A stretch of 64,000 nt of DNA, from assembly GCF_034355335.1 (NCBI RefSeq), contig NZ_CP136422.1, positions 5,306,501 through 5,370,500 on the forward strand. Reading direction: 5' to 3'. Within the stretch, counting starts at the first letter, position 1. Each line of letters starts with the position of its first letter. The translations under genes and the position numbers were made by a program. The notes below the pieces were generated by a model. The model saw only the letters and a list, made by a program, of their open reading frames with translations, did not search any database and was not told the DNA's origin. Shown here piece by piece: positions 2,909 to 39,762 of the stretch. Origin of the DNA: Blautia coccoides (GTDB lineage: Bacteria; Bacillota; Clostridia; Lachnospirales; Lachnospiraceae).

Positions 2909-2920
2909 TTGCGTAAAGGG

Positions 2921-8241: not shown

Positions 8242-8278
8242 GGAGAAAATGGAGAAATTTAGTAAAGGAGAATATGAT

Positions 8279-18026: not shown

Positions 18027-18082
18027 GTATTCCAACCGTAATAAAAAAAAGTTACTTCCTTCTATAAATTTCCGCCTTTCTC

Positions 18083-21431: not shown

Positions 21432-21559
21432 AAATGTTCCTGCCCTTCTACTGTTTTCTGTCCTATATCATACCATATTCCACAGCCAATTTGTGTCTGA
21501 AAATTGTTTTTGCCAAGCCTTGCATCGCAATTTACGGGAAAGCATTTTTTCTCAGTCAG

Positions 21560-21592
21560 AAAAAGCTGCCGCCTGGATATACATCCGGCAGC
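21560..21592 (-). terminator. Terminator after the permease genes
   Basis: On the minus strand, GCTGCCG and CGGCAGC pair around a 14-nt loop, followed by TTTTT. It is 23 bp past the second permease stop and separates the transporter from the two-component genes. Confidence 0.75.
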
Positions 21593-21614
21593 AGCTTTGA
21601 AGTCACAGCAGCAC

Positions 21615-22463: not shown

Positions 22464-22467
22464 TTTT

Positions 22468-23370
22468 TCAGTCCTCCTTCTTTCCATTTAACAGCTTCAT
22501 GGTGATCAGGGATACCATACTGATCAGGATAAACATACCGCCGGCTACTGCGGAACCATAACCCATATTAAACGTCTTAAAGGACTGCTTATACATATAG
22601 GTTGCCATCAATTCCGTAGAGGTTCCTGGACCGCCGCCGGTCATAACATAGATCAAATCAAAGTATTTCAGAGATCCTACCATGGAGAGGATCGCCGCAC
22701 TCTTCATGGATGGAACCAGAAGGGGAAGTGCTATTCTCCAGAAATACTGTCCTCTGGTGGCTCCGTCAATCCTTGCCGCTTCAAATACATCATATGGAAT
22801 GTTGGTAAACGCTGCCATAAAGTACACCATATAGAATGGGGTGAACTGCCAGCAGATGACCATGATAACCGTCAGCAAAGCTGTCTTGGGATTTCCCAGA
22901 AGGTCAATGTTGCCGCCTCCGAACCAGCCTGAGATGGTGCTTACGAGACCGCCGTTTGTTGCCAGTGCATATGTAAAAAGAAAACCGATCGCAACAGATG
23001 ACATCAGCAGGGGAATAAACCAGATAACCTTAAAAGGAGTAAGTTTCTTCCCTCCGAAATCCAGGAATGTTGCCAGCGCAAGTCCAATGGGGATCTGGAT
23101 ACAGATAGATAAGATCATAATGATAACATTGTTCTTGAACGCAACCCAAAAGCTGGTATCTGCAATAAGTTTTTTCCAGTTTCCGATTCCGATAAATTTC
23201 TTAGCCGCGGAGATTCCGTTCCACTGGTAACCACTTGTAATAAAAGTATCTACGATGGGATAGAAAATAAATATTACCATTAAAATGGTGACCGGTGCCA
23301 GGAAAAGCGCCGCAACTCTTCGTGTGTTTCTCTGCCTCATCTGGGCCAGAGAAATACCTTTTTCATTCAT
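22468..23370 (-). CDS. Carbohydrate ABC transporter permease, MalF/UgpA type
   Basis: 300 residues with six helices and an EAA loop reading VFEAARIDGATRGQYFWRIALPLLVPS. It forms the heterodimeric channel with the next gene, whose start lies 4 bp beyond this stop codon. The substrate class (oligosaccharide) is inferred from the binding proteins and glycosidases around it. A strong GC-rich hairpin lies between this gene and the upstream binding-protein gene, likely to reduce permease expression relative to the binding protein. Confidence 0.94.
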   Translation of the reverse strand: MNEKGISLAQMRQRNTRRVAALFLAPVTILMVIFIFYPIVDTFITSGYQWNGISAAKKFIGIGNWKKLIADTSFWVAFKNNVIIMILSICIQIPIGLALATFLDFGGKKLTPFKVIWFIPLLMSSVAIGFLFTYALATNGGLVSTISGWFGGGNIDLLGNPKTALLTVIMVICWQFTPFYMVYFMAAFTNIPYDVFEAARIDGATRGQYFWRIALPLLVPSMKSAAILSMVGSLKYFDLIYVMTGGGPGTSTELMATYMYKQSFKTFNMGYGSAVAGGMFILISMVSLITMKLLNGKKED

Positions 23371-23535
23371 AATAGAAGCCCTCCTTTTTGTTTCTGAAAT
23401 CTTTTACGTAACTGTTTCGTTACCCTTTCTTTTCTTATTATATATACTAACAAACCGGGTACTGAAAAGACATAGAACAATCTACGCATTATCTATAAAT
23501 ATTTGTCTTTTAAAAACAGAAAAATCATGTACTAG

Positions 23536-23568
23536 AAAGCGCCCTGCCCGCAAGGGACAGAGCGCTTT
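23536..23568 (-). terminator. Attenuating hairpin between binding protein and permease genes
   Basis: AAAGCGC / GCGCTTT closes an inner CTGTCCC / GGGCAG stem. The T-tract is short on the minus strand, which suggests partial read-through into the permeases, as is common after binding-protein genes. Confidence 0.65.
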
Positions 23569-23581
23569 TTATCATGTAAAA

Positions 23582-24949
23582 TTATTCAGCCTTAGTGCTT
23601 AAATACTCATCCATTGCCTTCTGCATGGAATCCTGTGCTTCCTGCGGAGTCATGGTCAGACCGAACACTTCCTGTAATCCATCAAGATGAGCAGTTGCAA
23701 CTGCCGGCGGCAGATACTGGTCATACCAAAGCTGGATTTCCGGAGCGTTATTGGCTGTCTCAACAATCTTTTTGGCAACCGGGTCTGTGATCTTCTCTTC
23801 GATTCCTTTTACTGGCGGAATCTTTCCTTTTTCAATCTCAAAGTCAATAACTTCATCAGAGAGATGTGCCTCTGCGCATTCAAATGCTGCTGCCAGCTTG
23901 TCGCCTTCACAGTTGAATGTGATGAACTGGTCACCTACTGTACCGATCTGGATGGTAGCGTCTGCATCAGAGCCTTCAATTGCCGGGAATGGGAACCAGT
24001 CAATTTTCTGATAGAAGTCTTCACTGTCAGAGGAGAAGGTACCTGTATACCAGGAACCGCACAGGAGCATGCCTGCAGTCTCCTGATACATGAGCTGTTT
24101 TGCCTGTCCGTCATCCTCACTCAGAGAGTTTACACCTTCCGGGAAGTAGCCTGCATTCACCCATTCCTGGATCTTCTCACCGGCTTTGATGAAGCAGTCA
24201 TCTGTAAATTTGCCTTCGCCTGCAACTGCTTTCTGGAATGGTTCCAGTCCGCCGTAACGTGCTGCAAGGCTCATGAAGTACATGGATCCTGTCCATTTAG
24301 AACCGTTAGCTAGGGCAAAAGGAGTAATGCCGTTGTCTTTGAGTGTCTTACAGATATTCTCTAAGTCACTGAGTGTTTTCGGTTCTGAGAGGCCATATTT
24401 TTCAAACATTTCCTTGTTGTAGAAAATACCTGCAAGGGATACATTCTGATAAGGAACTGCGTACACATGGTCATTGTATGTAGCCTGGGAAACAGCGGCA
24501 TCCATGAGTTTATCCTTGATATCAGATGCATTGAACAGGTCGTCGATGGGCTGTCCGAAACCGGAATCTATGTATTCATACATAGGACCGCCGGACCAGT
24601 TGGAATACATATCCGGGCACTCGCCTGAGCTCATGGCAACCACCAGTTTCTCTTTATAAGTATCGTTCTGTGTCGGCACGGTTGTAACGGTATAGCCTGA
24701 TTCTGTCTCGGAGTTAAATTTGTCTACTGCCTTTGCAATAACATCTTTGTCCGGGCTTTCTGTACCGATATTCCAATAAATGATCTCCTTGCTGTCATCA
24801 CCGGACTCTTTCTTTGCTGTTGTGTCTTCCCCTGAGGTTTTACTTTCGCTTCCGCCGCTGTTCCCTCCATCACTGCCGCATGCCGCCAGTGTTGCTGCCA
24901 TGAGTGCGGTCATAGAAAGAGCAACCAGTTTTGTCATTCTTTTCTTCAT
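23582..24949 (-). CDS. Extracellular sugar-binding lipoprotein 1 (ABC transporter)
   Basis: 455 residues of the solute-binding protein family 1 type. The signal peptide ends in the lipobox LAAC, followed by a Ser/Gly/Asp/Lys-rich flexible linker (residues about 25-50). The mature part has the two-lobe fold with landmarks NKEMFEKYGLSEPKTL, NGITPFALANGSKWTG and SLSEDDGQAKQLMYQ. It delivers its ligand to the two permeases encoded directly downstream. A close paralog lies upstream (25335-26711). Its leader is interrupted by a 134-bp mobile repeat at 24991-25124. Confidence 0.93.
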   Translation of the reverse strand: MKKRMTKLVALSMTALMAATLAACGSDGGNSGGSESKTSGEDTTAKKESGDDSKEIIYWNIGTESPDKDVIAKAVDKFNSETESGYTVTTVPTQNDTYKEKLVVAMSSGECPDMYSNWSGGPMYEYIDSGFGQPIDDLFNASDIKDKLMDAAVSQATYNDHVYAVPYQNVSLAGIFYNKEMFEKYGLSEPKTLSDLENICKTLKDNGITPFALANGSKWTGSMYFMSLAARYGGLEPFQKAVAGEGKFTDDCFIKAGEKIQEWVNAGYFPEGVNSLSEDDGQAKQLMYQETAGMLLCGSWYTGTFSSDSEDFYQKIDWFPFPAIEGSDADATIQIGTVGDQFITFNCEGDKLAAAFECAEAHLSDEVIDFEIEKGKIPPVKGIEEKITDPVAKKIVETANNAPEIQLWYDQYLPPAVATAHLDGLQEVFGLTMTPQEAQDSMQKAMDEYLSTKAE

Positions 24950-24990
24950 TTTTTTCCTCCTTTAAATGAAATACATATGTTACTTTACGT

Positions 24991-25124
24991 GTAACCATTC
25001 AGTAGGTCTGCGCATTTACTGCGCTGACCGTAAGAAAACGTTCAGAAGCCAAGTAAAAATCCCATCACCACAGGCGATTCTGCATGGATATTTGCTTGTA
25101 ACTGTGAATGCACTGAACAGTTAT
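24991..25124 (+). mobile_element. Short non-autonomous mobile repeat (MITE), copy A
   Basis: 134 bp. It starts GTAACCATTCAGTA and ends with the imperfect inverse TGAACAGTTAT. It is flanked by near-identical 8-bp repeats, ctttacgt (24983-24990) and ctttatgt (25125-25132). By hand alignment it matches copy B (47605-47737) at about 88% with one 1-base gap. Internal features are a GCGC/GCGC hairpin near the left end and a weak hairpin in the middle; there is no coding capacity. GTAA termini with 8-bp duplications are the signature of IS66-family transposition, so an IS66-type transposase acting in trans is inferred. Confidence 0.8.
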
Positions 25125-25164
25125 CTTTATGTCTTATATCATAGTCCACTTTTGAACTAATAAC

Positions 25165-25202
25165 CATAAAATAAAGTGTCCTCATTATATAATATTCTTA
25201 CC
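25165..25202 (-). promoter_or_regulatory. Upstream motif of binding protein 1 (shared with binding protein 2)
   Basis: On the minus strand it begins GTAAGAATATTATA and continues to ACACTTT and a T-rich tail. 31 of 38 positions match the element at 26786-26823 upstream of the second binding-protein gene. It lies 216 bp from its start codon, of which 134 bp is the inserted mobile repeat. It probably contains promoter or YesN-binding sequence. Confidence 0.6.
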
Positions 25203-25250
25203 TGAAAGGCGGATTATTTATATATTTTTTCCAAATCTTCCTCTGACAAA

Positions 25251-25302
25251 ACAGAAAAAAGAGAAAAAGCCGACAATGAAATCCATCCATTGCCGGCTTT
25301 CT
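25251..25302 (-). terminator. Terminator of the binding protein 2 gene
   Basis: On the minus strand an 11-bp stem AGCCGGCAATG / CATTGTCGGCT (one G-T pair) with a 9-nt loop is followed by TTTTTCTCTTTTTT. It makes binding protein 2 a separate transcript from binding protein 1. Confidence 0.85.
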
Positions 25303-25334
25303 GCCGAAAACTCATCTTATTTTTGTATCAGCCT

Positions 25335-26711
25335 TTATTCCTCGCCGTGGCTGCTGTTATACTCATCCATTGCTTTCTGCAGTTCTTTATTGGCCTCTTC
25401 CGGTGTCATTGTGAGACCGAATAATTCCTGACAGGTATCTTTATGTGCCTCAGATACAACCGGCGGCAGGTACTGGTCATACCAGAGCTGTACAGAGGAC
25501 GCATTCGTGGCGGCCTCCAGGATCTGCTGGCTGACCGGATCTGTGATCATGTCTTTTGCTTTTTTGACCGGAGGAATCTTGCCGTTCTCTACCATGAAAT
25601 CCAATTCCTCATCATCAAAATAGTAGCTTGCCATCTCAAACGCCGCATCCAGCTTCTCACCTGTACAGTTAAATGTCAGGAATCCATCCCCGATGGTACC
25701 TATGATGATAGAAGCATCCGCTGAGGAGTCATCAACTGCCGGGAACGGGAACCAGCCCAATTTGTTGTAGAACTCTTCGCTGTCCTGTTTAATAGTTCCG
25801 GTATACCAGGAACCGATACAGGTCATGGCAGCTTTATCCTGATATAAAAGCTGTTTGCCCTGTCCGTCATCCTCACTCAGAGAGTTCACACCTTCCGGGA
25901 AATATCCTTTTTCGACCCACTCCTGAATCTTCTCCCCAGCATAGACAAAGCTCTCATCCTCAAAGGTTCCCTCGCCGGAAACTGCTTTCTGGAAAGGTTC
26001 CAGACCGCCGTAACGGGTAGCCAGGTTCATGAAGTACATGGAGCCTGTCCATTTGGAGGCATTGGCCAGTGCGAATGGGGTGATCCCGTTCTCTACGAGA
26101 GTATTGCATACTTTTTCCAGCTCGCTGATGGTTGTGGGCACTTCCAAATTATACTGCTCGAACATATCTTTATTGTAATAAATACCGGAGATAGCCACAT
26201 TCAGCACCGGAAGTCCATATACTTTTCCATTGTAAGTTCCCTGTTCCAGAGCTGCGTCCATAAGTACATCCTTCAGACCGTATTTTTCGATGTACTCATC
26301 AAGAGGCTGACCGAATCCTGCTTCCACGTACTCGATCATAGGACCGCCGGACCAGGTCTGATAGATGTCAGGGCATTCACCTGAGCTGACAGCCACCACC
26401 AGTTTTTCCTTGTAGGTATCATTCTGGGTGGGAACATAGGTCACCTGATAGCCGGTCTCTTTCCCTTTGCCGTCATTGTATTTGTCTATCGCATAATTCC
26501 AGATACTCTTGTCCGGGTCTTCCGTACCGTTAGCCCACATGATAATTTCTTTATCCCCGTCCTTGCTGTCGGAGGATGTGGCGCTGTCTTCTTTTTTGCC
26601 TTCCTCTGTACCGCTGCTGCTGTCCCCTCCATTGGAACCACACGCACCCAAAGCTGCCGCCATAAGTACGGACATGGATATGGCTGCCAGTTTCATCATC
26701 CTTTTTTTCAT
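25335..26711 (-). CDS. Extracellular sugar-binding lipoprotein 2, paralog of lipoprotein 1
   Basis: 458 residues, colinear with the 23582-24949 product along its whole length. Shared stretches include NGITPFALAN-SKWTGSMYFM, GLEPFQKAV-GEG and SLSEDDGQ-KQL-YQ. The lipobox is LGAC and the linker is Ser/Lys/Asp-rich. Differences concentrate in the linker and scattered surface positions, consistent with an old tandem duplication that has diverged, perhaps in ligand preference. It has its own upstream motif and terminator but no permeases of its own, so it presumably shares those at 21615-23370. Confidence 0.93.
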   Translation of the reverse strand: MKKRMMKLAAISMSVLMAAALGACGSNGGDSSSGTEEGKKEDSATSSDSKDGDKEIIMWANGTEDPDKSIWNYAIDKYNDGKGKETGYQVTYVPTQNDTYKEKLVVAVSSGECPDIYQTWSGGPMIEYVEAGFGQPLDEYIEKYGLKDVLMDAALEQGTYNGKVYGLPVLNVAISGIYYNKDMFEQYNLEVPTTISELEKVCNTLVENGITPFALANASKWTGSMYFMNLATRYGGLEPFQKAVSGEGTFEDESFVYAGEKIQEWVEKGYFPEGVNSLSEDDGQGKQLLYQDKAAMTCIGSWYTGTIKQDSEEFYNKLGWFPFPAVDDSSADASIIIGTIGDGFLTFNCTGEKLDAAFEMASYYFDDEELDFMVENGKIPPVKKAKDMITDPVSQQILEAATNASSVQLWYDQYLPPVVSEAHKDTCQELFGLTMTPEEANKELQKAMDEYNSSHGEE

Positions 26712-26836: not shown

Positions 26837-28081
26837 TCAGGCCATATGTCTGTTATAAAAATATATGGTCATTCCCGCAAACAGCGGAATTTCCACCGCC
26901 AGAGCCACAGGTATCACGAACGGTATCCAAAATGATACCCCGCCCAGATAAAGGAAATTGAAATCAAACAATTCATAGAAAAAGCTGCTTCCCAGACCAA
27001 GCCCTCCTGTGGGCAGTATGCAGCGTATCCAGCCGGCCAGATTTCCGCTGCTCATCTGTCCGATAATAATGGGGAGCAGACAGAGGACCATGCCTGCGAT
27101 GACTGCTGCCTGAACACTCCTGCATATAGATGATATCACCAGTGTGCACAAAACTGCAGCTATAATGGTAAGGAAACCAACCCCGGCTCCCACTAAAAGC
27201 ATCTGTCCCAGGTTCATATCAGGCAGACTCACTGCTGAGTACACCATCTGTATGGAGTTTTTCATACATTCCGCGCCAAATATGCTTTTCATAAGAAACA
27301 GGTATACAGCAGTTCCTGCCGCCACCGTGGCTGCAGATATGAAAAACATAACGGTTAATCTGGTCGCTGCCAGCCGCCTTCTCCCATATCTGGTACACCG
27401 CTGTATATCATCTGCTTTTGTCTGATAGTCAGATGAAAAAGTCGGCGCTGCCAAGAGCACACAGATAAATTCCAAAAGAAGAAGATAAAGGATCAGATAG
27501 TCTCCCGCATCTTTGTTAAAGCCGGGGTAATATTCATAGGGCTGTTTCACTTCAGCGTAAAGGGCACTGGCTTTTTTTTGGGCATCCGGGTGCTTCTTCT
27601 GTTCCATGTTCATAAGACTGTTCAGACGTTCTGTACACTGTTGGTAAAACTGTCCGGCATTTTTAGGGTCTATCTCCATGATATCCGGCGCGATGCCTGT
27701 TGTTTTATCCGCATTTACCTCCCGGACAACATGGATCACAGCCTCAATGGGCAGAATTTTTTCATTATATACATTGAGAGGAAAATCTTCACCTGACGTA
27801 GGGCCATACTCATTTACACAGGCCTGATAGGTTTCCAGTGCCGCCTGTATCTTATCCGGTGTTATGGTTCCTGCGGATACTGCCTGCTTTTCTTTTATGA
27901 TCTCTATGGCTTTTTTTCCGGTTATGGTTATCTGTTTCCCGCTCTCATCCAGATAGGAATACTGCACAAAACTCATGGGAAAATAGGCCATGATAAGAGA
28001 CAGCAGAAGCGCTGCCGCCAGAAGGAAGGGCACAGTCCTTGTCTTCATAATTCTTTTCCATTCCGCTTTTATCAATCCCAT
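26837..28081 (-). CDS. ABC-2-type transporter permease
   Basis: 414 residues. One N-terminal helix (about 17-33) is followed by an extracellular domain of some 170 residues and then five or six helices in the second half, the layout of ABC-2 permeases such as those exporting lantibiotics or lipids. The start codon follows the ATPase stop codon directly (TAAATG), so the pair is translated together. No signature reveals the cargo. It is the last gene of the sigma factor operon, and no terminator is obvious before the next gene's promoter motif. Confidence 0.85.
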   Translation of the reverse strand: MGLIKAEWKRIMKTRTVPFLLAAALLLSLIMAYFPMSFVQYSYLDESGKQITITGKKAIEIIKEKQAVSAGTITPDKIQAALETYQACVNEYGPTSGEDFPLNVYNEKILPIEAVIHVVREVNADKTTGIAPDIMEIDPKNAGQFYQQCTERLNSLMNMEQKKHPDAQKKASALYAEVKQPYEYYPGFNKDAGDYLILYLLLLEFICVLLAAPTFSSDYQTKADDIQRCTRYGRRRLAATRLTVMFFISAATVAAGTAVYLFLMKSIFGAECMKNSIQMVYSAVSLPDMNLGQMLLVGAGVGFLTIIAAVLCTLVISSICRSVQAAVIAGMVLCLLPIIIGQMSSGNLAGWIRCILPTGGLGLGSSFFYELFDFNFLYLGGVSFWIPFVIPVALAVEIPLFAGMTIYFYNRHMA

Positions 28082-28972
28082 TTACTCCACCTCCTTTTCA
28101 AACCGGCTCTCCGGAAACAGCCAGAGATACAGATCCTCCAGTCTCGGCACCTCTTTTACGGAATCCGCGACTTGGGGCTTTTCAGATAAATATCTGATGG
28201 AAACCTGTCCGTCCGCCTCATTTTTCAGATTCACGATCTGCAGTTTTCTCTCATACTCTGCAAGCTGTCCCAAAGGTACCATACCTGTCCAGACCTTATC
28301 CTCCACCATGGTGACCAGCTCCTCTGTTGTACCGGTTGCCAGTATTTTTCCGTCTTTCATCACTGCGTTGCATGTGGCAATATACTCCACATCGGAGACA
28401 ATATGGGTGGATATGAGCACGATCCTGTCATGGGAAGCAAATTCTGAGAGCAGATTACGGAACCGCACACGCTCCCCCGGGTCAAGGCCGCTTGTGGGTT
28501 CATCCAGAACCAGCACCTCCGGTTCATTGAGCAGAGCCTGGGCAATCCCCACCCGGCGCTTCATTCCCCCTGAAAGCTTCACGATCTTTTTCTTCCTGAC
28601 ATCCAAAAGTGTCATCTTCTCCAGAAGCTCTTCTATCCTTCTTTTTCCTTCTTTTTTCGTCAGTCCTTTCAGCACTGCCATATACTCAAGGTAGTCCTGG
28701 ACCGTAAATTCAGGATAAAAGCCAAACTCCTGCGGCAGGTAGCCGAAAATATCCCTGTATTTCTCTCTCAGCACCTGAATAGAAATACCGTCATAGAGCA
28801 CTTTCCCTTCCGTGGGTTTCAGTATACCAGCCACCATACGCATGAGCGTTGTCTTTCCCGCTCCGTTGGCACCCAGAAGTCCCCATACCCCGGGCGTCAG
28901 CTTCAGGCTCACCTGACTGACTGCTGTCTTGTCCTTATATTTTTTTGATATCTGATCTATGGTCAGTTCCAT
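28082..28972 (-). CDS. ABC transporter ATP-binding protein
   Basis: 296 residues from ATG 28970-28972, placed behind AAGGAGG; a longer frame overlaps the upstream gene and lacks an RBS. The nucleotide-binding domain has Walker A GANGAGKTT, the signature LSGGMKRR, Walker B VLVLDEPTSGLDPGE and the switch His in ISTHIV. The last roughly 70 residues are a C-terminal extension typical of DrrA/BcrA-like exporters. It partners the ABC-2 permease downstream. Confidence 0.93.
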   Translation of the reverse strand: MELTIDQISKKYKDKTAVSQVSLKLTPGVWGLLGANGAGKTTLMRMVAGILKPTEGKVLYDGISIQVLREKYRDIFGYLPQEFGFYPEFTVQDYLEYMAVLKGLTKKEGKRRIEELLEKMTLLDVRKKKIVKLSGGMKRRVGIAQALLNEPEVLVLDEPTSGLDPGERVRFRNLLSEFASHDRIVLISTHIVSDVEYIATCNAVMKDGKILATGTTEELVTMVEDKVWTGMVPLGQLAEYERKLQIVNLKNEADGQVSIRYLSEKPQVADSVKEVPRLEDLYLWLFPESRFEKEVE

Positions 28973-28991
28973 CTTCTTCCTCCTTATCTCA

Positions 28992-29774
28992 TTATTGCCA
29001 TATCTCCACTGCTGTTTCCATTCTGTCTGCTCTGCGGAGCTGGCGGATATCCCACAGGACTGCCACTGCACACACTGCCATCCATCCCTTCTGAAACGAA
29101 TGCTCATAAAAACCGTGGCAGTAATAATACATCAGCAGGAGAATCACCACAGTTCCTATCCCTGCCCCAAAGCAGGCTCTCAGTATATATTGCATTTCCA
29201 CATGCACAGCAATGGTCATGTAAATACTCCCCAGTACCAAAAAGGGCATCAGAAGATATAGTAGCGCAACGCCCGGATTTCCCCCCATACCAACCACTGA
29301 AAATAAAAACAGCAGTACCAGCATCAGGAAATCCCCTGCGCTTATGATCATCAATCGGGCAGTCAGCAGACGATTAGAGGAAAACCTGGAGACCTGTTCT
29401 GTCTCCGCCATCTGATAGCGCCGGGACCTGGCAAGCATGGGCAGAGAGGGAAAGAGCAGAAACACACTGGCAAAACACAGCAGAACCGGGAGATGCCGTC
29501 CCCACAGATATCCCATATCACCACGATATAGTGTATAAAAAAATGCATAGACTGTCATCAGAGCAGCCGCCTGTGCTCCCCACGTCCTCCAGCCCATGAA
29601 TCTGACCTGGCCTGCCATGAACTGCCAAAAGGAAATTCTCCTGTTTCCGGAAGCGGCGCGGTATTCCTGTCTTGCGGCCAGCATAACAGCTCCTCTTCCA
29701 CTCTCTTCTATATCCGGGTCAGTCCTTTTTTGCAGACTTTGCCGCATCCTTTCCTCTATGTCAGATTTTCTCAT
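28992..29774 (-). CDS. Multispanning membrane protein between sigma factor and ABC genes (unknown; possible anti-sigma role)
   Basis: 260 residues. The hydrophilic N terminus (about 1-60, rich in Arg/Glu) is cytoplasmic, followed by six membrane helices. It overlaps the sigma gene by 14 bp, the position in which ECF anti-sigma factors are usually encoded. I see no zinc-binding anti-sigma motif. It could equally be an additional subunit of the ABC exporter. Family not recognised. Confidence 0.65.
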   Translation of the reverse strand: MRKSDIEERMRQSLQKRTDPDIEESGRGAVMLAARQEYRAASGNRRISFWQFMAGQVRFMGWRTWGAQAAALMTVYAFFYTLYRGDMGYLWGRHLPVLLCFASVFLLFPSLPMLARSRRYQMAETEQVSRFSSNRLLTARLMIISAGDFLMLVLLFLFSVVGMGGNPGVALLYLLMPFLVLGSIYMTIAVHVEMQYILRACFGAGIGTVVILLLMYYYCHGFYEHSFQKGWMAVCAVAVLWDIRQLRRADRMETAVEIWQ

Positions 29775-30294
29775 ACGGAATTCCTCCTTTCTCCAGCTCC
29801 TTCTTCATTCTCTTCAATGCTGCCCGCAGTCTTGACTGTACTGTTCTTACAGGCAGATCCAAAATCTGTCCGATTTCCCTCATAGTCAGGTCATGGGCAT
29901 AGCGAAGATATATGATCTCTCTCTGCTCTTTTGGCAGTTCTTTGATCAAAAGTATAAAATCCATCTCTGTCTCTGCCCTTGAATATCCATGCTCCAGGCA
30001 TTCCAGAGTGTCCGGTATCTGTTCCTCCAGGCGTTTTTTTCTCCACATATCTACACACGTATTGGCTGCCACCTGGTATAAAAAAGCGCGGAATTTGCCC
30101 TTGTGCACATAACGGTCCAGATACCGCACGGTTTTAAGGAATGTCTCCTGAACGGCATCCTCTGCGGTCTGCCTGTCTTTTGTGTGACAGATGCAGTACC
30201 GGAGAATATCCGCGTAGTACAGGGATATCAACTCATCCAGGGCACTCATATCTCCATATTCCAGTTTTTTTAATAGTTTGTCTTCACGCGTCAA
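29761..30294 (-). CDS. ECF-type RNA polymerase sigma factor
   Basis: 177 residues starting at a TTG codon preceded by GGAGGAAATC; no ATG is suitably placed. Region 2 is seen in YYADILRYCICHTKDRQTAEDAVQETFLKTVRYL and region 4 in LPKEQREIIYLRYAHDLTMREIGQILDLPVRTVQSRLRAALK. With the overlapping membrane protein and ABC exporter it forms a stress-type operon, plausibly for envelope-active compounds. A candidate autoregulatory promoter lies upstream. Confidence 0.93.
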   Translation of the reverse strand: MTREDKLLKKLEYGDMSALDELISLYYADILRYCICHTKDRQTAEDAVQETFLKTVRYLDRYVHKGKFRAFLYQVAANTCVDMWRKKRLEEQIPDTLECLEHGYSRAETEMDFILLIKELPKEQREIIYLRYAHDLTMREIGQILDLPVRTVQSRLRAALKRMKKELEKGGIPYEKI

Positions 30295-30436: not shown

Positions 30437-30477
30437 GTAACTGTTCAGCGCCCTCACTGTTATGAGCCAAAATCCAT
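30437..30477 (-). mobile_element. Terminal remnant of the mobile repeat (copy C)
   Basis: 41 bp matching the right end of copies A and B on the minus strand: 35 of 41 bases agree with 47697-47737, including the terminal TGAACAGTTAC. The rest of the element is missing. It begins at the last base of the cohesin gene's stop codon and ends against the terminator, so either a deletion or an insertion end created the present 3' end of that gene. Confidence 0.6.
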
Positions 30478-31286
30478 TATCTTCTTTTCTTTTTAGCAAT
30501 TACTGAAGCGGCTATGACTATTACTGCCGCTCCGGCACCCAGAACAGGTAGTAAGATGTCAGTGTCATCCCCTGTCTTGGCTGATTTGGAAGTTGTTGTG
30601 CCGCTGCCGGACTTTTTAGCCGGAGTCGTTGTAGGTGTGGTCCCTTTATTTCCGCTGCCGCCGGTTCCGTCATTTTTATCGCCGCCCTGGCTGCCGTCGC
30701 CGCCCGGATTTTCGGTATCATCACCGCCCGGATCCTGGTCGTCTCCACCCGGTTTATTGTCGTCGCCGCCCGGATTGGGATTTTCACCCTTTGCTTCCAC
30801 TGTAATAGAAGCAGTATGCGTTTCATTGTGTCCTATATTGCCGCTGTCTCCTGCCAGTTCCTCAATATCCACCCGGATATCCGCTGTATCGCCAGCCTTT
30901 ACGCCCTCTGCCAACTGAAAAGTCATATCAAGCAGACTTCCATCTTCCGAAAGGGGAGCTGAAGAGGCAAATGCCGCCACAATTTCACCCTCATCCTTGT
31001 TCCCGGTCAGACAATCATTGATCTCACATAAGGCCCCGGACAGCGCACCTCCGGCGCTGTCCGCAGTGAGGACAAGTTTGGATGCATCGTAATGGATACG
31101 GATCTTTCCATTGGTCACTTCCTGGGCGTCTGTGATCTCACAGTTCACCTGAACCTGACTGCCCTCCTGTGCCTTACCTGGGTTTAACGCGATTTCTGTT
31201 CCACCTGCGGCCCAGACAGGCATTGCCTGTACAAACAGAAGTGCACTCATACATAACATTGCTATTTTTCTGGTTCTCTTTTTCAT
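30477..31286 (-). CDS. Wall-anchored cohesin-domain protein
   Basis: 269 residues. A signal peptide (about 1-27, cut near VWAA) precedes a cohesin-like domain (about 30-165) with GSQVQVNCEITDAQEV, KIRIHYDASKLVL and DGSLLDMTFQLA. A low-complexity linker of PGGDD-type repeats (about 170-215) follows. The end is a sorting signal: KSAKTGDD, a hydrophobic helix and the basic tail AKKKRR, close to the (N/S)PKTGD signals of clostridial sortases. It should display one cohesin on the wall and bind a dockerin. The gene directly upstream encodes a dockerin protein, and both share one terminator. Confidence 0.82.
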   Translation of the reverse strand: MKKRTRKIAMLCMSALLFVQAMPVWAAGGTEIALNPGKAQEGSQVQVNCEITDAQEVTNGKIRIHYDASKLVLTADSAGGALSGALCEINDCLTGNKDEGEIVAAFASSAPLSEDGSLLDMTFQLAEGVKAGDTADIRVDIEELAGDSGNIGHNETHTASITVEAKGENPNPGGDDNKPGGDDQDPGGDDTENPGGDGSQGGDKNDGTGGSGNKGTTPTTTPAKKSGSGTTTSKSAKTGDDTDILLPVLGAGAAVIVIAASVIAKKKRR

Positions 31287-31326
31287 ATAGGTTACCTGCC
31301 TGTTCTCCTGGATTTTCCTCTAAAAT

Positions 31327-34300
31327 TTAGAATGTTGTGATCTTCTCTGCTGCCATCTGAAGTATTCTAGTCGCGTCAGTTGTGTTGGTCTCATTATCTG
31401 CATTCACATCACCGATGAGGATCTGCTCTTCTGTCAGTTCTTTGAGTCCTACACTGTACTGCAAAAGCAGTGCACTGTCTGCTGCATTCACAACACCGTT
31501 CAGATCCACGTCACCGAGAAGTCTTACTTCTTCTACTTCTTTTGTAAGTTCTGCTACTGCTGCATTGATCTCATCCTGAACTGCCTCCAGATCGTCATAG
31601 ACAATCTTAGCTTTGTCAAAGGCTTCCTGCAGACCCTCAATACTTCCTGCCAAATATCTGCCTGAATTGTTGAGGATTTCCTGGGCTTTTGCCATAACGG
31701 TCTCCAGTGCTGCCTTATTGCCTTTGAATACAAGGCCTGTAATGGCTTCTTCCAGTGCCTGACGAGCCTCTCTCGCTTCCTGACCTGTCAGTTCTGTATT
31801 GGCTGCTGTCTGTCTTGCTGTTTCGAGCTGGTTCTTAAGTCTTTCCACAGATTCTGCTGTGTATTTGCCGGAATCCTTCAGGATAGTTTCTGCCTGTGCA
31901 ATGACCGCATGCAGGCGGGCAAAATCCTTATCTAACATCTGAGATACTGCGGTGAGCAGATTCGTGGTTGCCTCATTAACTGCAGTCTGTCCTGCCTCTA
32001 CTTCATCCTCACCGTATTCGGTATCTAATACAGTCTTGGCTGCCTTTAATGCGTCTTTTACTGCCTGGGCACTGCCTTCTGTATAGCGTTCTTCTGTGGC
32101 CGGATCCGCGAGGATTGCTTCCGCTCCCTGAACAGCGGCTTCCAGACCAAACTTCTGTACACCCGGTTTCAGAGATGTGATCGCGCTTATCAGTTTACTA
32201 AACGCGTCATCCACCTGTCCCTGTGTTGTCTCAAGGCTTGTCAGAATCTCATTCGCCTCAGTAAGAGCCTCTTCCACTGCTGCCCAGCTCTCCGGTGAGA
32301 AGGACTGGCTGCCGTTTGCAAGGTTCTCGGCCATGGTAATGGCTAATTCCAGGCCCTTGGTATCTACTGTAAGCTTAACCTGTACAGTAAAGGATGCTGT
32401 CAATACAGTTTCTCCCTCTGTATAAGTCACCGTGATTTCTTTCGGTCCGATCACACTGGAATCAAATCCGGTGGTGGTGTATTCATCTGCATTCAGCGGC
32501 TTTGATTTTCCGTCATTATAAACGGCTTCTACCACGATACCTTCTGCGTCGAATTCATCGCCTAACAGATAGTCTGTCTTGGCATTTTCTGTATTGACTG
32601 TGATGGCTTCAAGGGTGATCGGTACCAGCACATCTTTTGCGTTGCCCAGGGCTACAATGGCATCGGTAATCTCCTTCTGGGATGCTGCATTTTCCACAAC
32701 CGCCTCTGCCGCTGCAATAGCTTCCTGGAATTTCTGGTAGCTGTCCGGTGTATAACCGTCAGCCTCAATGCCCTTCATCTCCTGAATCAGGGCTTCCAGA
32801 CTGGATGTCTCAAGCTTCTTGAAGGTAACTTCCAGAGTATGGTCTTCAATTACATATTCAAATGTAACTTTGTTATTATCCACTGCTGCCGGTTTGCCAT
32901 CCACAAGAACTTTATCAACCGTATAACCTTTATTCGGTTTGATGACAAATGTTTTGTTTGTCTCACGGTCTACAGATACATCACCTGTCTGGCTGACGGT
33001 TCCGTTGTCACCTGCTGTTACGCTGATGGTATGTGTCGGAACTTCATCACCGTAGTATACTTCTTTTACGGTAATTCCGTGAGCTGCTCTTCTTGTCTGC
33101 AGCGTATACTGTCCGGGTTCTGTGCTGTAAGGAACATTGGACGCACTTCCTAATTCTGTCCCGTCATACCACAGAGTCAGGTCATATAATCCTACTGCTT
33201 TGCCGGCACTCGGTACAAATTTGAATATAATTTCATGCTCTTTATTTTCAGTAAGCGGATGACCTTTGGTAAAGTCACCCCAGCCATTTTCTGCCGTTTT
33301 ATCATAGAACCAGTTTCCGCCGCCTGCATCATACCCGAACATGATTCCGCTTCCGACTGTAAACAATGTCTGGTCTGCTATACTGTCTGTGGTAAAGCGG
33401 ATACGGAATATCCCCTGATTGATAGCGGAGGCATTCATATCCTTAGCAGTTCCGTTACCTCCGATAGATAATAACATACCCTCATCCGTAAGCTGTCCGG
33501 AAGCATTTGTATATTCAAAGTTTGCTTCATCTGCTATTGCAAAATCCTGATAATAAGTATCATATTCTGCCACGTTAACCGCTTCAGTAAATGCCTTCAT
33601 AGCTGCTTCCAACTTCACATATGCTGTTTCATATTCAGCCGCTTCTTTTCCGTCCGGAACTGCCTTTGCTTCATCGATGGCTGCTTTGAATGTATCGACT
33701 GCTTCCTGGGTGTATTCGCCAGGTTTCGGTCCAACCACTGCCGCATTCAACTGTGCTTCCGCATCCTGGATCAAAGCACCTAAATCTTCATGCGTAAAGT
33801 TATTCGGTACATATGTGATCACTTTTTCCAGAGCGGTCACATGGCCTTCCGCATTGCTGAAAGATACATTAACAGTTACCAGTTTTCTTGTTGCTCCCTC
33901 TTCTGCCGTAAAGGTTACATTCATAAGTTCCGCAGCCTTCTTGAATGCATCCTGTTTTTTGATTCCATAAGAGAAACGAACCGTCTTGGTTCCGTCCTCA
34001 TTGTCTGTCACTGTCGGCTCTGATGTTTTCAGAAGCGCCTCTTCGTTCAATGCGGCACTGTCTGTGTTTAAAGTGATCTGAGCCGGGTCATAAGTATATT
34101 CCACAACTGCATTTCTGTATTTGTTGAATATATTCTCCAAGCCAACATTTACCTGGTAGTCATGGTTTCCTTTATCCTCTGTACTCACTGTTGCAGCCGG
34201 GCTTCCTGTGATCTCTTCACCGTATACTCCCAGCTCTGTCATGGACATTCCCCATTCGTTCGCGTTGCTAATGGAAACAATGGCTACATACTGAGCCTCT

Positions 34301-37300
34301 GCCGGATCAAATTTTACAAGATTCAGTCCCGGATAAGCGCTGTTTACTGTCTTTACAGTATTCCAGGAATTTCCGTCTGCAGATACCTGTACCTCATAAT
34401 CTGTGGCATAAGCGCCCGGTGTCCAGTCAACCGCAACTGTATCTACCATATATTTCTTTTCCAGATCTATGCTGATCCACTGTCCGCTTCCCTGTCCGCT
34501 GCTGTAGCGTGTGGACTGGCTGCCGTCAACCGCGTATTTTGCTGCCATGGAATCTGCTTCCTGACCGCTTGCGTCTGCCGGTTTGTTAAGCGCCAGATTC
34601 TCGCCTGTTATTTCCTGATAAGGTTCCACGATAACTGCGTTGACAATGGCTTTTCCTTCGGATGCTTTCAGTCCGATATCAATGAGGCCGTCTTTTGCCT
34701 CTGCCGTAACAGTGATATCGTATGCTTTATCCTGTTCCGGAATGGTGAAGCCTTCTTCCACAACAGAACCGTTGACACTCACATCAAATGTTCCGGGTGT
34801 GAAATCATCTGCGCTGGTATCATTAAAATACAGTTTTACTCTGTAGATTCCAGGCGCTGCTTTGAATTTGTATCCAAAGTCTTCGCCGGCACGTCCGCTC
34901 TTAAGTGCAGTTCCAAGACCTGCATCGGGTACAGGCTTCTGGCCGCTGAGGCTGCTGTTAATCTCCTCTGTTCCAGTGGAACCATTTGCATACCAGCCGC
35001 TTCCTGTCACTTCAAATTCCGCATCCTCAAACAATCCGTCATGGTTGCCCATATTGGAGGTATCGGAATTACCTGCATCCAGTCTCATATTCACTTCTGA
35101 CATTACAGCCATATCTGCCGCGATACCATTCAGAATAGGATTCGTCATTGTTCCGGCTTCTTCACTGTATGCGCTCTGAAGCTTGATCGTAATAACACCG
35201 CCTGCAGGGTATACAGAGCCGATTTCGATAACATCTGTGTCACCGGATAGGGTGTATCTCTCTTTTACCACTTCACCGTTGACCAGAACGTCAAAAGTAC
35301 GTCCGGCAATATCTTCCATCTCAGAAACATAGAGTTTCAGATTGTGGGCAGTATCTGATGCATAGACCTTGTACTCAATCGTATCCGCGGTAACACCTGT
35401 GGCATATACACCACTTCTGCTGCTTGTCAGTCCGCTGTATTCATCCACATAACCGGATAATTTTTTATTTGCGTCATAAGCCTGGTCTGCACTGAATCCG
35501 TCAATGGCATCTCCGCCCACATTATAGGATTTGGAATGCTCCTGAAGAATAAATTTCCAGTCAGTACCTGCTGCTCCCAGAGAAAGAGTTCCGTCATTAT
35601 TGCAGACAAGGAAGTCATCCCCTGATTTTAACTGATGAAGTCCGTTCAGCATGTCAACTGCTGTCCAGACAGTAGCATCTTTTTCTGTCAAAACTGCTGC
35701 GCCGCCGTCAATGTTCAGATACAAGTAAGCATTGCTCTCTGTATCCCAGATCTTCACTTTATAGCCGCCGCCTGCGTTTTCCATAACGAACTGGCTGCCT
35801 GAAGCATTGACTTCCAGGCCGTCTTCTCCGCTGGCAAGATATTCTCCGCATTCCGGATCATATACTTTATATCCCGCGTTGCTCTCAAGGCTGAAGTCCG
35901 CGCCTTTTACGCCAGTCATCTCCATAATACCGATATCTGGAGCACCGTCATAGAGAGGATTGCCGAAGAAGTCGGTCTTTGCATTTCTGTCTGAGGTGTA
36001 ATCCCAGAGTCCCATGTTTTCCTGGCTAGTTGCCGGAACTACATTGACATACACACCATTTCCGATAGCCGGTGAGCCATCCTTCAGCGCGTAGGCTTTC
36101 AGGGATTCCCAATCGGAGACTGCTGACATACCATCCTCACTGATCACTGCGCTCTGGCCGCCGCCCGGATTTTCAAAGAGCGGGTCTGCCTGGATCGCAT
36201 TAGGGATCTCACCAGGATCATGGATGCCGCTGGCCTCATACACCAGGTTCCCTGCCTGCTGCAGGTAGGAGTTCTTCCAACTGTCAGCCGTTGTATCCGC
36301 ACTTCCCCATTTACTTGTCACTTCTTCATTGTAGTTATAGTAAATGTTGTTGTACATATGCCAGTTGTAAGCGCTTCCCATTGCGGAGCCGCCGCCGTTG
36401 CTGTGGTTGAATACCCAGTTGGCGCCGTCGTAATAGAATACGTTATTGTAAATATAGCTGGCGGAATTTGTATTTCCCGCTCCGTGACGCCATGCAAGAC
36501 CGTCATTCTGGCTCACATTATAACGGATCACATCTGTGTTGTTGTTTCCCATCATAAGCATAAAGCCCATAGGCGTGTCATGGCTGTAGTTATACTCGAA
36601 GATAGTACCTGCACACCAGTAATCACTGTCATAGGAACAGCCGTCCTGATTGTAAGCAGGTCCGTCAAAGCTCTCGTTATAGCGGAATAAGGTATCAAAG
36701 GAGTTCCATGCCCAGATACCCGCATTGGCACCTTTTGCACGCATGGCCTGTCCGTTTACTACGTTATGCTCAACAACTGCTCCCTGAGCTTCACAGACCA
36801 GAATACCGTCACCGCCGATGTCACTCAGATAGTTGCCGACAATATGAAGGCCTCTCTGTGCCTGGCCTTTATAGCGGATGTTGTCATGACGCACACCGTC
36901 ATTGGCTGAGTTGTTGTCCGCGTCATTGTTGGGATCGTATCCGGTTTTATTCGGATCATTGTTTTTGAACTGATCCAGGTCTGAGAGGCGGATCGCCTTG
37001 ATACCTGTACGGTCACACTGGTCAATTCTGTTGTTCTGTATCGTCACACCGTTAAAGTAAGGATAAACGCCTGCCTTTGAGCTGAAAATAACTTCAACGC
37101 CGATACCGCCGTCAACTTTGTTCACACCGCGGTTTTCATTTCCGTCTACATCATGTACATAACAACCGTCAATAACGATGGTATTGTACTCTTTGTCGTC
37201 CTCTAATGTTTTGTTTACAGTTTCCCGCTCATCAATGGTAACGTGAATGCCCAGACGCCTGGGAACAACATCATCACTTCCGGAATTCAGATTGTTTTCA

Positions 37301-37872
37301 TCTGCTGCATCGCTTGTCTCATTGAATGCGTCATCATTGGTCACTTCCAGTCCTGTCACATATGTATATTCCATGTTCTGGATCAGGACTGCCTCTTTAT
37401 AGCCTGCATATTCAGGAACTTTAACACCAGGGATATCGCTGTCGATCATATTGCCGGTTCTTCTAAATCCTCCCGCATTGATAACAGGCATACTTCCCTC
37501 GCCGTATGTGTCGATCACAATTGGTTTCTCCTGGGTTCCTGTTCCCTTAGGCGCAAGCTGCTGGTTGTCAAAAATACTGCCTTTCTTCAGGCTGATGCCG
37601 TCTCCCGGCTGCAATTCGATGGCGTTCACTTTTGCCAGTGTCTTAAATGGTTTTGCCTCCGACCCGTCTCCGCTCTCATCACTGCCGTTTTCACTGTCCA
37701 CATGGTAAACCGTTCCTACTGCCTGGGGAATCTCCTCTGTGACTGCAGCAGGTACACTTCCCTGGTCTTCTACAGCCGCCTGTATATAGACTGGGAAATT
37801 TACCGAAGTGCAGACAAGAGCCGTCGCCAGCGTAGCACCAAACGCCCTGTTCCATCGCTTCCATGATTTCAT
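31327..37872 (-). CDS. Giant secreted multidomain glycan-active protein with C-terminal dockerin
   Basis: 2181 residues from ATG 37870-37872, which has AAGGAG 8 bp upstream. Approximate order: signal peptide 1-33; right-handed beta-helix of the polysaccharide lyase/hydrolase kind 55-660; a trefoil-like region 665-785; two malectin/CBM-like domains 785-1090; F5/8 type C (CBM32-like) domain 1090-1220; an internal cohesin-like domain 1228-1356; FIVAR 1365-1435; a lectin-like beta domain 1436-1612; a beta-repeat 1613-1690; FIVAR 1690-1750; a Big_3 Ig-like domain 1752-1832; four FIVAR modules 1837-2111; and a type I dockerin 2118-2179 with two calcium loops, GDVDLNGVVNAADSALLLQY and GDVNADNETNTTDATRILQM. 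The substrate of the beta-helix is unknown. It is followed after 40 bp by the anchored cohesin gene. Confidence 0.88.
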   Translation of the reverse strand: MKSWKRWNRAFGATLATALVCTSVNFPVYIQAAVEDQGSVPAAVTEEIPQAVGTVYHVDSENGSDESGDGSEAKPFKTLAKVNAIELQPGDGISLKKGSIFDNQQLAPKGTGTQEKPIVIDTYGEGSMPVINAGGFRRTGNMIDSDIPGVKVPEYAGYKEAVLIQNMEYTYVTGLEVTNDDAFNETSDAADENNLNSGSDDVVPRRLGIHVTIDERETVNKTLEDDKEYNTIVIDGCYVHDVDGNENRGVNKVDGGIGVEVIFSSKAGVYPYFNGVTIQNNRIDQCDRTGIKAIRLSDLDQFKNNDPNKTGYDPNNDADNNSANDGVRHDNIRYKGQAQRGLHIVGNYLSDIGGDGILVCEAQGAVVEHNVVNGQAMRAKGANAGIWAWNSFDTLFRYNESFDGPAYNQDGCSYDSDYWCAGTIFEYNYSHDTPMGFMLMMGNNNTDVIRYNVSQNDGLAWRHGAGNTNSASYIYNNVFYYDGANWVFNHSNGGGSAMGSAYNWHMYNNIYYNYNEEVTSKWGSADTTADSWKNSYLQQAGNLVYEASGIHDPGEIPNAIQADPLFENPGGGQSAVISEDGMSAVSDWESLKAYALKDGSPAIGNGVYVNVVPATSQENMGLWDYTSDRNAKTDFFGNPLYDGAPDIGIMEMTGVKGADFSLESNAGYKVYDPECGEYLASGEDGLEVNASGSQFVMENAGGGYKVKIWDTESNAYLYLNIDGGAAVLTEKDATVWTAVDMLNGLHQLKSGDDFLVCNNDGTLSLGAAGTDWKFILQEHSKSYNVGGDAIDGFSADQAYDANKKLSGYVDEYSGLTSSRSGVYATGVTADTIEYKVYASDTAHNLKLYVSEMEDIAGRTFDVLVNGEVVKERYTLSGDTDVIEIGSVYPAGGVITIKLQSAYSEEAGTMTNPILNGIAADMAVMSEVNMRLDAGNSDTSNMGNHDGLFEDAEFEVTGSGWYANGSTGTEEINSSLSGQKPVPDAGLGTALKSGRAGEDFGYKFKAAPGIYRVKLYFNDTSADDFTPGTFDVSVNGSVVEEGFTIPEQDKAYDITVTAEAKDGLIDIGLKASEGKAIVNAVIVEPYQEITGENLALNKPADASGQEADSMAAKYAVDGSQSTRYSSGQGSGQWISIDLEKKYMVDTVAVDWTPGAYATDYEVQVSADGNSWNTVKTVNSAYPGLNLVKFDPAEAQYVAIVSISNANEWGMSMTELGVYGEEITGSPAATVSTEDKGNHDYQVNVGLENIFNKYRNAVVEYTYDPAQITLNTDSAALNEEALLKTSEPTVTDNEDGTKTVRFSYGIKKQDAFKKAAELMNVTFTAEEGATRKLVTVNVSFSNAEGHVTALEKVITYVPNNFTHEDLGALIQDAEAQLNAAVVGPKPGEYTQEAVDTFKAAIDEAKAVPDGKEAAEYETAYVKLEAAMKAFTEAVNVAEYDTYYQDFAIADEANFEYTNASGQLTDEGMLLSIGGNGTAKDMNASAINQGIFRIRFTTDSIADQTLFTVGSGIMFGYDAGGGNWFYDKTAENGWGDFTKGHPLTENKEHEIIFKFVPSAGKAVGLYDLTLWYDGTELGSASNVPYSTEPGQYTLQTRRAAHGITVKEVYYGDEVPTHTISVTAGDNGTVSQTGDVSVDRETNKTFVIKPNKGYTVDKVLVDGKPAAVDNNKVTFEYVIEDHTLEVTFKKLETSSLEALIQEMKGIEADGYTPDSYQKFQEAIAAAEAVVENAASQKEITDAIVALGNAKDVLVPITLEAITVNTENAKTDYLLGDEFDAEGIVVEAVYNDGKSKPLNADEYTTTGFDSSVIGPKEITVTYTEGETVLTASFTVQVKLTVDTKGLELAITMAENLANGSQSFSPESWAAVEEALTEANEILTSLETTQGQVDDAFSKLISAITSLKPGVQKFGLEAAVQGAEAILADPATEERYTEGSAQAVKDALKAAKTVLDTEYGEDEVEAGQTAVNEATTNLLTAVSQMLDKDFARLHAVIAQAETILKDSGKYTAESVERLKNQLETARQTAANTELTGQEAREARQALEEAITGLVFKGNKAALETVMAKAQEILNNSGRYLAGSIEGLQEAFDKAKIVYDDLEAVQDEINAAVAELTKEVEEVRLLGDVDLNGVVNAADSALLLQYSVGLKELTEEQILIGDVNADNETNTTDATRILQMAAEKITTF

Positions 37873-38194: not shown

Positions 38195-38959
38195 TTATTT
38201 TCCTTCTATAGCATCCTTCACCGCCTGGGTCAAAGCCATTTGATCCGGTATCTCCACCACTGCTGCCTCTGCCATTTCTTTCAAATGTTCCTGGTATTTA
38301 TTCTCCAGAACAAGATTTTTAGCAGATGTCTCTATATTTTCATAGTCCTCATTGTCAAAGTAGTCCGGGTCTGCATCATAAACTGCCCTGGCCTCCTCAT
38401 CGGATGCGGTAAGCTCTTCTTTATTGATCAGCTCTCTTTTATTCTGGAGAGAGAGATTCTCGTTGAAATAATCGTAAAACTGGTCTGCCGTGTACTGTGT
38501 CATTCCAAATACAGTTTCATTATTCCCCTTTTTCTCTTTTCTGTCCTTGTTTTCCTTTTCCATTGCTTTTATCAGGGAGGGATAATCAATGGCATCCGCA
38601 AGACCATTGTCCATGGCCTCCTTCTGCATGGTCTTGATGGATTTCATCTCTGCAACCACTGCGTCTGCCAGATATTCATAGCCGTTTTTTCCTTCCACCT
38701 CTGTATCCCAGGTGAATTCTGATATGTCAATCCCAGCCTTCTCTGCTATTTTCTCCCTCTGATGTAATTTGATCTTATTGACAACGCATGCCACCTCTTC
38801 CCTGTAAACCGGCTGTCCGTCAACGGAAAATACTGCTTTCTCTGTTCTGCCCTTCACAAAAAATATGACTGCTGCCGCCAATGCCGCAGCCAGGACCACC
38901 AACAGAAGCACTATCCATTTCTTTGATGATTTTCCGCTGTCTTTCTGCATTTTACCCAT
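38195..38959 (-). CDS. Membrane-anchored SurA/PrsA-N-like protein without a PPIase domain
   Basis: 254 residues with AGGAG upstream. A basic N terminus is followed by a single membrane helix (about 14-36). The exported part begins with AVFSVDGQPVYREEVACVVNKI, the typical opening of SurA/PrsA/foldase N-terminal domains. It continues as charged helices, with no rotamase (parvulin) domain. It could hold or fold exported partners; the neighbouring lipoprotein barnase is an obvious candidate. It is last in a five-gene run on the same strand, 21 bp after barstar. Confidence 0.7.
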   Translation of the reverse strand: MGKMQKDSGKSSKKWIVLLLVVLAAALAAAVIFFVKGRTEKAVFSVDGQPVYREEVACVVNKIKLHQREKIAEKAGIDISEFTWDTEVEGKNGYEYLADAVVAEMKSIKTMQKEAMDNGLADAIDYPSLIKAMEKENKDRKEKKGNNETVFGMTQYTADQFYDYFNENLSLQNKRELINKEELTASDEEARAVYDADPDYFDNEDYENIETSAKNLVLENKYQEHLKEMAEAAVVEIPDQMALTQAVKDAIEGK

Positions 38960-38980: not shown

Positions 38981-39229
38981 TTAGCCAATCAATCGAAGAC
39001 CTTCATTCTCTTTTGCAGCGTCCAGCAGGACACTCCATATCCGCAGAAAATAGTTCTGCGCCTGCTCTCTGTTCTGCACTTCAATCTCCATCTCTTCCGC
39101 CTCTGTAAGACAGTCGTACAGCGCGTCCAGATTCCCCCCATAGTAATCCGGGAACTGCATTTTTTCCTTCAGATATCTGTGTGCTGTCTCCTTCTCATCC
39201 ATATATAACGCGTCCAGGACTATCCTCAT
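38981..39229 (-). CDS. Barstar-family ribonuclease inhibitor
   Basis: 82 residues, close to the 90 of classical barstar. It keeps FPDYYGGNLDALYDCLTE, the helix-loop that plugs the barnase active site, including the Tyr and Asp contacts. It overlaps the preceding ribonuclease gene by 4 bp (ATGA), as expected for a toxin-immunity pair that must be made together. It is cytoplasmic, so it would protect the cell from enzyme that has not yet been exported. Confidence 0.92.
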   Translation of the reverse strand: MRIVLDALYMDEKETAHRYLKEKMQFPDYYGGNLDALYDCLTEAEEMEIEVQNREQAQNYFLRIWSVLLDAAKENEGLRLIG

Positions 39230-39762
39230 GGATTCTCCTCTCCATACAAAAGCTCAAAAGTTTCGTAGTGATCCTCCGTGTAATACACAAGGCCGTCATC
39301 TGAGTAAATGATCCGCTTTGCCCCCCGGTAGCCTCCGTCACTGTCAATGTCACATTCGTAATACTGCCGTCCCTCTTTTTCCGGCAGAATTCCTTCATAA
39401 TTGCCGAATCTGTCCCCACCGATACTCTTGCCCGGCGCAGCTTCTGACAGATTGCCCTTACTGCTGACCCATCCGGCGTTCTTGGCTTCTTTCTTCGTGA
39501 TAAAGTTGTCCGGAAGGTGTCTGAACTGATGGATATAAGCCGCCACATCCTCCTTTGAGGTATAGCTTCCAGACTCCTCAAGTGTCTCTGCATTCTGCTC
39601 TGCCTCTGTGTTCTGCTCCTCCTGTCCGGACGTCTGCTGTATGTCTATGTCCGTCTGGTCTGCGCTTTTATCTGTAATGCCGGTACATCCGGTCAAAAGA
39701 CAGAGCAGCAGTGCCAGAATGCCGCATATATATTTAAATTTATGTCTCCAAATTTGAACCAT
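39226..39762 (-). CDS. Barnase-type guanyl-specific ribonuclease, predicted lipoprotein
   Basis: 178 residues. The signal peptide ends in the lipobox LLTGC (Cys 26), followed by a Gln/Glu/Thr-rich stalk (27-66) and a barnase domain (67-175). Catalytic residues align with barnase in identity and exact spacing: Glu 136 (YECDI), Arg 146 and Arg 150 (GYRGAKR) and His 165 (EDHYETF), matching Glu73/Arg83/Arg87/His102. The motif KGNLSEAAPGKSIGGD is also conserved. Membrane anchoring is unusual, because classical barnase is freely secreted. It may digest external RNA or act on competitors at contact. The immunity gene follows immediately. Confidence 0.9.
   Translation of the reverse strand: MVQIWRHKFKYICGILALLLCLLTGCTGITDKSADQTDIDIQQTSGQEEQNTEAEQNAETLEESGSYTSKEDVAAYIHQFRHLPDNFITKKEAKNAGWVSSKGNLSEAAPGKSIGGDRFGNYEGILPEKEGRQYYECDIDSDGGYRGAKRIIYSDDGLVYYTEDHYETFELLYGEENP

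Follow-up and report, generated by a model that had tools for sequence, protein, structure and literature searches.

How might a bacterium hold a very large glycan-active protein on its wall when that protein ends in a dockerin and the adjacent gene encodes a single cohesin with a sortase-type anchor? The question is raised by a stretch of 64,000 nucleotides of Blautia coccoides (NZ_CP136422.1, positions 5,306,501 to 5,370,500 of a 6.1-Mb, single-contig genome), hereafter the window. A preliminary description made from the sequence had reported a large dockerin protein followed by a single-cohesin gene, and had read the two as a minimal, non-cellulosomal way of anchoring. Open reading frames, Pfam and NCBIfam bear out both frames, while the two-gene system becomes one of three genes, all on the minus strand, with the addition of an LnbY-type chaperone (Table 1). 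We give a probability of roughly 80% to the reading that these genes encode a split anchor, in which an enzyme of the GH136 (glycoside hydrolase family 136) type would be held on the surface by a separate wall-anchored cohesin; the binding, the linkage to the wall and the catalysis are predictions from sequences and models.

The two halves of the putative clip are recognisable by profile as well as by structure or motif. The small protein is predicted to be secreted, with its cohesin set on a low-complexity linker before the sortase-type signal; the cohesin has both the sequence profile and the nine-strand fold of the class, and its model matches cohesin structures in Foldseek and structure alignment. 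Its sorting motif is AKTGD and not LPXTG, and the genome holds 11 sortase matches over cut-off. The large protein, likewise predicted to be secreted, carries, as had been proposed, malectin, CBM32-like and FIVAR modules and a C-terminal type I dockerin, all confirmed by Pfam, which adds a Big_3 domain at residues 1762-1832. The duplicated calcium-loop/helix motif of the dockerin is supported by the Dockerin_1 score and can be read in the sequence, with Asp or Asn kept at what we take to be the calcium-ligand positions of both loops, and structure-database comparison finds its relatives among solved dockerins. Only three dockerins in the whole genome exceed the cut-off, and only two cohesin genes stand out, each with one cohesin, although unrecognised cohesins are possible. 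A full cellulosome was ruled out, as no multi-cohesin scaffold was found in the genome, and the notion of a minimal, non-cellulosomal anchor is supported by these single cohesins and few dockerins.

What the anchored protein would do is suggested by its N-terminal beta-helix. Residues 52-653 match solved GH136 structures (7v6m, E 2e-46; 6kqs, 3e-36; 5gqc, 6.8e-31; with others, overall range 2e-46 to 1.5e-27), and the NCBIfam LnbX model matches the enzyme at E 6.1e-36 with 123.8 bits, short of its equivalog cut-off of 2500 bits. In ErLnb136 (6kqs) the available text of PMC7335108 gives D568 as acid/base, D575 as nucleophile and W548 as stacking on galactose; sequence alignment places these opposite D410, D417 and W389, the chain numbering having been tied to that of the paper through the seven-residue spacing. 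Beta-helix and catalytic Asp pair are accompanied by the helper expected of the class: the upstream gene matches NCBIfam 'lacto-N-biosidase chaperone LnbY' at E 2.5e-14 and 53.7 bits, under the equivalog cut-off of 400, and a PDB search with this protein returned no match. Elsewhere the genome encodes a GH112 lacto-N-biose phosphorylase. With enzyme class, helper and downstream step all present, we infer lacto-N-biosidase activity for the window enzyme. Host or dietary glycans had been suggested as target; the GH136 assignment, which now names the beta-helix, favours the host side, the likely target being a host-type glycan with Gal-beta1,3-GlcNAc units. The same genome encodes two more GH136-type proteins, L123 (1941 residues, two GH136-type domains) and L124 (1564 residues), each with an LnbY-type neighbour and each with its own C-terminal sortase-type tail; these in-chain tails show what the cohesin clip replaces.

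In the mechanism that we propose, the LnbY-type chaperone would act at the membrane to fold the enzyme, the cohesin protein would be linked to the wall by a sortase, and the dockerin would bind the cohesin with calcium. The stalk of FIVAR and immunoglobulin-like (Ig) domains would hold the enzyme outward, with the CBM32-like and malectin domains attaching it to glycans, so that lacto-N-biose could be cut from type 1 chains on milk or mucin glycans and then split by the GH112 phosphorylase. Mostly one enzyme would be carried per anchor, as opposed to a multi-enzyme scaffold.

The arrangement recurs. A cohesin profile from 20 relatives was run on the genome collection and on 20 genomes of the genus, and a profile of the cohesin domain on 397 genomes of the family. 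We call strong those loci whose cohesin scores above 130 bits (the window, L008, L016-L022, L053-L055 and L079-L083); there are 17 of them, from 13 genomes, four being from B. parvula and two from the genome of the window. A dockerin gene adjoins the cohesin gene or genes on the same strand at 17 of the 17, at -43 to 388 nucleotides from the nearest cohesin gene; since only cohesins went into the profiles, this adjacency was not selected for. The count leaves aside L089, a solute-binding protein, and L076, which duplicates L017. Each of the 20 dockerin proteins at the strong loci exceeds the Pfam Dockerin_1 cut-off, and the enzymes are varied, with unrelated catalytic domains: GH136 (3 orthologs), GH43 (5 proteins), GH30 (2), GH3 (3), GH53 and GH16, besides one DUF5695 protein, one with a GH28 match under cut-off, one with ricin-type lectin domains, one in which only FIVAR and dockerin are called, and a frame of 161 residues at L080. 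An xTGD tail is present in 15 of the 17 principal cohesin proteins. L081-L083 have two cohesin genes in a row beside GH3 dockerin enzymes, the second lacking a sortase tail; at L081 and L082 it is this tail-less gene that lies nearest, the anchored cohesin being about 1.1-1.3 kb away. The order chaperone, enzyme, cohesin is the same in B. parvula (L016) and in genome G008 (L055), and the GH136 and cohesin frames are intact in all three Blautia genomes. What had been described as a single system is accordingly one case of a recurrent enzyme-plus-clip cassette. It is a patchy trait: 11 of the 397 family genomes match at E 1e-4 (L089 included), 4 of the 20 genus genomes match across most of the cohesin domain, and in a class-wide search of 391 genomes no match outside the family rose above 53 bits.

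The second pair in the genome of the window, L008, joins its own anchored cohesin, in which Pfam finds no match at E 0.1, to a GH43 enzyme related to galactan 1,3-beta-galactosidases, among sugar-transport-like genes and a GH35 gene. Because of this enzyme and of the GH30 enzyme at L054, whose best relative of known structure is an endo-beta-1,6-galactanase, several cassettes look aimed at galactose-rich glycans. The third dockerin (L009; G000:C1:3932000-3951000, 2272-9218, minus strand) is internal to an M60 peptidase, at residues 274-320, and directly after this gene stands one for an anchored protein of 505 residues with AKTGD that is not recognisable as a cohesin. L009 was tried as a third cohesin-dockerin pair and is not counted as one because profile comparison with the cohesin family gave a probability of 0.4%; it is possibly a third clip of another kind.

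Whether the two halves bind, and how selectively, can be approached through conservation. In type I cohesins the dockerin is bound by a face made up of strands 3, 5, 6 and 8 together with the 5-6 loop. Conservation here is strongest in strand 6, at 0.65 bits, in strand 3, at 0.72, and in the 5-6 loop, at 0.85, with strand 5 intermediate at 1.36; the face with its loop stands at 1.19 bits versus 1.93 for the other strands (p 5e-4), and at 1.29 without the loop (p 0.004). This pattern of conservation, together with the neighbourhood, supports cohesin-dockerin binding, and it also hints that clips may be shared between pairs. That the anchored cohesins are interchangeable sockets, any dockerin enzyme fitting any anchor in a mixed surface array, is a reading to which we allow somewhat less than an even chance: strand 3, the loop and strand 6 are nearly identical in paralogs, some loci offer one cohesin to two enzymes, and distances over the conserved strands alone follow the dockerins weakly (r 0.25). 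Over the whole domain, in contrast, cohesin and dockerin distances correlate at r 0.55 (n 15) and 0.50 (n 14), modestly above the cohesin-FIVAR control (r 0.38; partial r 0.45), although co-inheritance can explain most of this. The mirror-tree count with the FIVAR control (n 14) excludes the short L080 frame and two GH136 orthologs; after that control the mirror-tree was dropped as proof of pair specificity, and private pairs are not claimed.

Several observations weigh against the split anchor or against its regularity. The Pfam Cohesin score of the small protein is marginal (24.6 bits, cut-off 24.1), and strand 8 lacks conservation (1.96 bits), although it belongs to the expected binding face. 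L019 is without the TGD motif and L053 has KTKD in its place; L017, L020 and L054 have two dockerin enzymes with one cohesin, so that one enzyme per anchor is not universal. L077, L078 and L084 (54-62 bits) have a cohesin-like domain and no dockerin gene nearby, and among four weaker loci (28-49 bits) such a gene is found at L085 only, L086-L088 having none. Lastly, a Robinsoniella relative of the enzyme (L128, 46% identity over 1729 residues) is without a dockerin. As to the architecture of these outliers, the domain of L077, L078 and L084 lies at the C-terminal end of anchored proteins of 540-640 residues, and at L085 (G148:C47) the weak cohesin-like anchored protein adjoins a protein with a mid-chain dockerin.

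The enzyme had also been credited with a cohesin-like domain of its own, and thereby with chains or self-association. Foldseek does place a Clostridium perfringens cohesin-like module first for the model of this domain (E 1.1e-5, TM-score 0.59; predicted local distance difference test, pLDDT, 76). Pfam at E 1, however, has no match in about residues 1222-1352, and in a second structural alignment pilin and other domains tie with the cohesins, which leaves the fold assignment weak; the domain is moreover without the residues invariant in the anchored cohesin family. We consequently think it very unlikely that the dockerin binds the internal domain of another copy, in chains ending at the anchored cohesin. 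A search of 200 family genomes found the internal domain in 2. Least likely of all is a relic of some larger cellulosome-like system whose binding has been lost, a reading that the few dockerins and the missing multi-cohesin scaffold would suit, but which is opposed by intact frames in three Blautia genomes, by two dockerin loops that look intact, and by the conservation within the cohesin, which is highest in strand 3, the 5-6 loop and strand 6.

The anatomy of the split-anchor cassette is well supported, its binding probable, and the system is a variant on the known cohesin-dockerin theme. In the enzyme-enzyme pairs of C. perfringens the dockerin likewise stands beside FIVAR domains. These pairs too serve host-glycan enzymes, but their cohesin lies inside the partner enzyme and joins two enzymes, whereas that of Blautia is on a separate wall anchor (available text of PMC12997984). 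According to the same text, the mucinolysome of the gut bacterium Limousia has dockerin-bearing GH136 and GH43_24 enzymes, together with a scaffoldin, cSca5, that is LPxTG-anchored and has its cohesin at the N-terminus; its tandem-cohesin scaffoldins cSca1 and cSca2, however, carry many enzymes, while the Blautia single cohesins each stand beside their own enzyme gene. Ruminococcus scaffoldins such as ScaE share the cohesin fold and the covalent sortase anchoring, but serve large cellulosomes with many dockerin proteins, compared to one anchor and one or two neighbouring enzymes in Blautia (available text of PMC11557425). The main text of that survey of cellulosome bacteria does not name Blautia, Robinsoniella or Lachnospiraceae; for Lachnoclostridium sp. 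MSJ-17 it describes three single-cohesin proteins, yet as many as 39 proteins with a dockerin. LnbX/LnbY and the Clostridiales GH136 lacto-N-biosidases share the beta-helix with its Asp pair and the dedicated chaperone or helper subunit, but the main text of PMC7335108 mentions no dockerin, which the window enzyme has. A literature search on titles and abstract openings gave, among the matches listed, no description of this cassette in Lachnospiraceae, although an earlier one is possible, subscription literature being mostly outside its scope.

Most of what is known about cohesins and dockerins comes from scaffolds that carry many enzymes. A clip that recurs with one or two enzymes, in a genome whose sister enzymes are anchored in-chain, makes it possible to ask what use a non-covalent anchor has and how scaffolds may have originated. 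Blautia is a common gut genus, and the locus also suggests that it has a lacto-N-biosidase system on its surface. Pfam recognises 15 of 30 cohesin relatives at E 0.01, which suggests that such cohesins are under-annotated. Tentatively, we propose that this distinct cohesin family, half of its sampled members missed by Pfam, could serve Lachnospiraceae as a general plug-in anchor: in a cassette of enzyme-FIVAR-dockerin and cohesin-sortase genes the catalytic domains would be swapped freely, and the calcium-dependent clip would allow enzymes to be displayed, exchanged or shed, as in a one-enzyme relative, ancestral or reduced, of the cellulosomes.

Table 1. Features of the proposed split-anchor locus (window coordinates; residue numbers refer to the respective protein)
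Feature	Position	Strand	Basis
LnbY-type lacto-N-biosidase chaperone, 254 residues, N-terminal hydrophobic stretch	38195..38959	-	NCBIfam LnbY model
GH136-type enzyme with malectin, CBM32-like, Ig and FIVAR domains and C-terminal dockerin, 2181 residues from ATG	31327..37872	-	Pfam, NCBIfam, solved structures
GH136 beta-helix catalytic domain, residues 52-653	35914..37719	-	solved GH136 structures
W389 codon, predicted galactose-stacking residue	36706-36708	-	alignment to 6kqs
Codons D410 to D417, predicted acid/base and nucleophile	36622..36645	-	alignment to 6kqs
Malectin, residues 994-1078	34639..34893	-	Pfam, 37.0 bits, cut-off 23
F5/8 type C (CBM32-like), residues 1099-1211	34240..34578	-	Pfam, 71.7 bits, cut-off 28.2
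Internal beta-sandwich, possibly cohesin-like, residues 1222-1352	33817..34209	-	sequence, profile and model comparisons
Top-scoring of five FIVAR stretches, residues 1857-1901, stalk	32170..32304	-	Pfam
Type I dockerin, residues 2119-2170	31363..31518	-	Pfam Dockerin_1, 27.5 bits, cut-off 22.9
Wall-anchored single-cohesin protein, 269 residues	30477..31286	-	Pfam, NCBIfam
Cohesin domain, residues 28-164	30795..31205	-	Pfam Cohesin and predicted fold
Sortase-type tail from residue 235: AKTGD, hydrophobic stretch, KKKRR	30480..30584	-	NCBIfam LPXTG_anchor, 22.3 bits, cut-off 15.9

The gap between enzyme and cohesin genes is 40 nucleotides, and the LnbY-type gene ends 322 nucleotides before the enzyme gene, whose 5' end an alternative TTG start would move to 37890. 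A promoter and terminator scan gave counts like those of shuffles and is uninformative. Directly before the LnbY-type gene lie genes for a barnase-type ribonuclease (39226-39762, minus strand) and a barstar-type inhibitor (38981-39229, minus strand). Directly downstream of the cohesin gene (26837-30294, minus strand) are an extracytoplasmic function (ECF)-type sigma factor, a 260-residue protein without Pfam match and an ATP-binding cassette (ABC) transporter pair; by-eye comparison finds genes of the same kind and order after the cohesin gene in L016 and L055. Further downstream (15660-26711, minus strand) follow two sugar-type solute-binding proteins, a sensor kinase with an AraC-type response regulator, and a GH3 enzyme.
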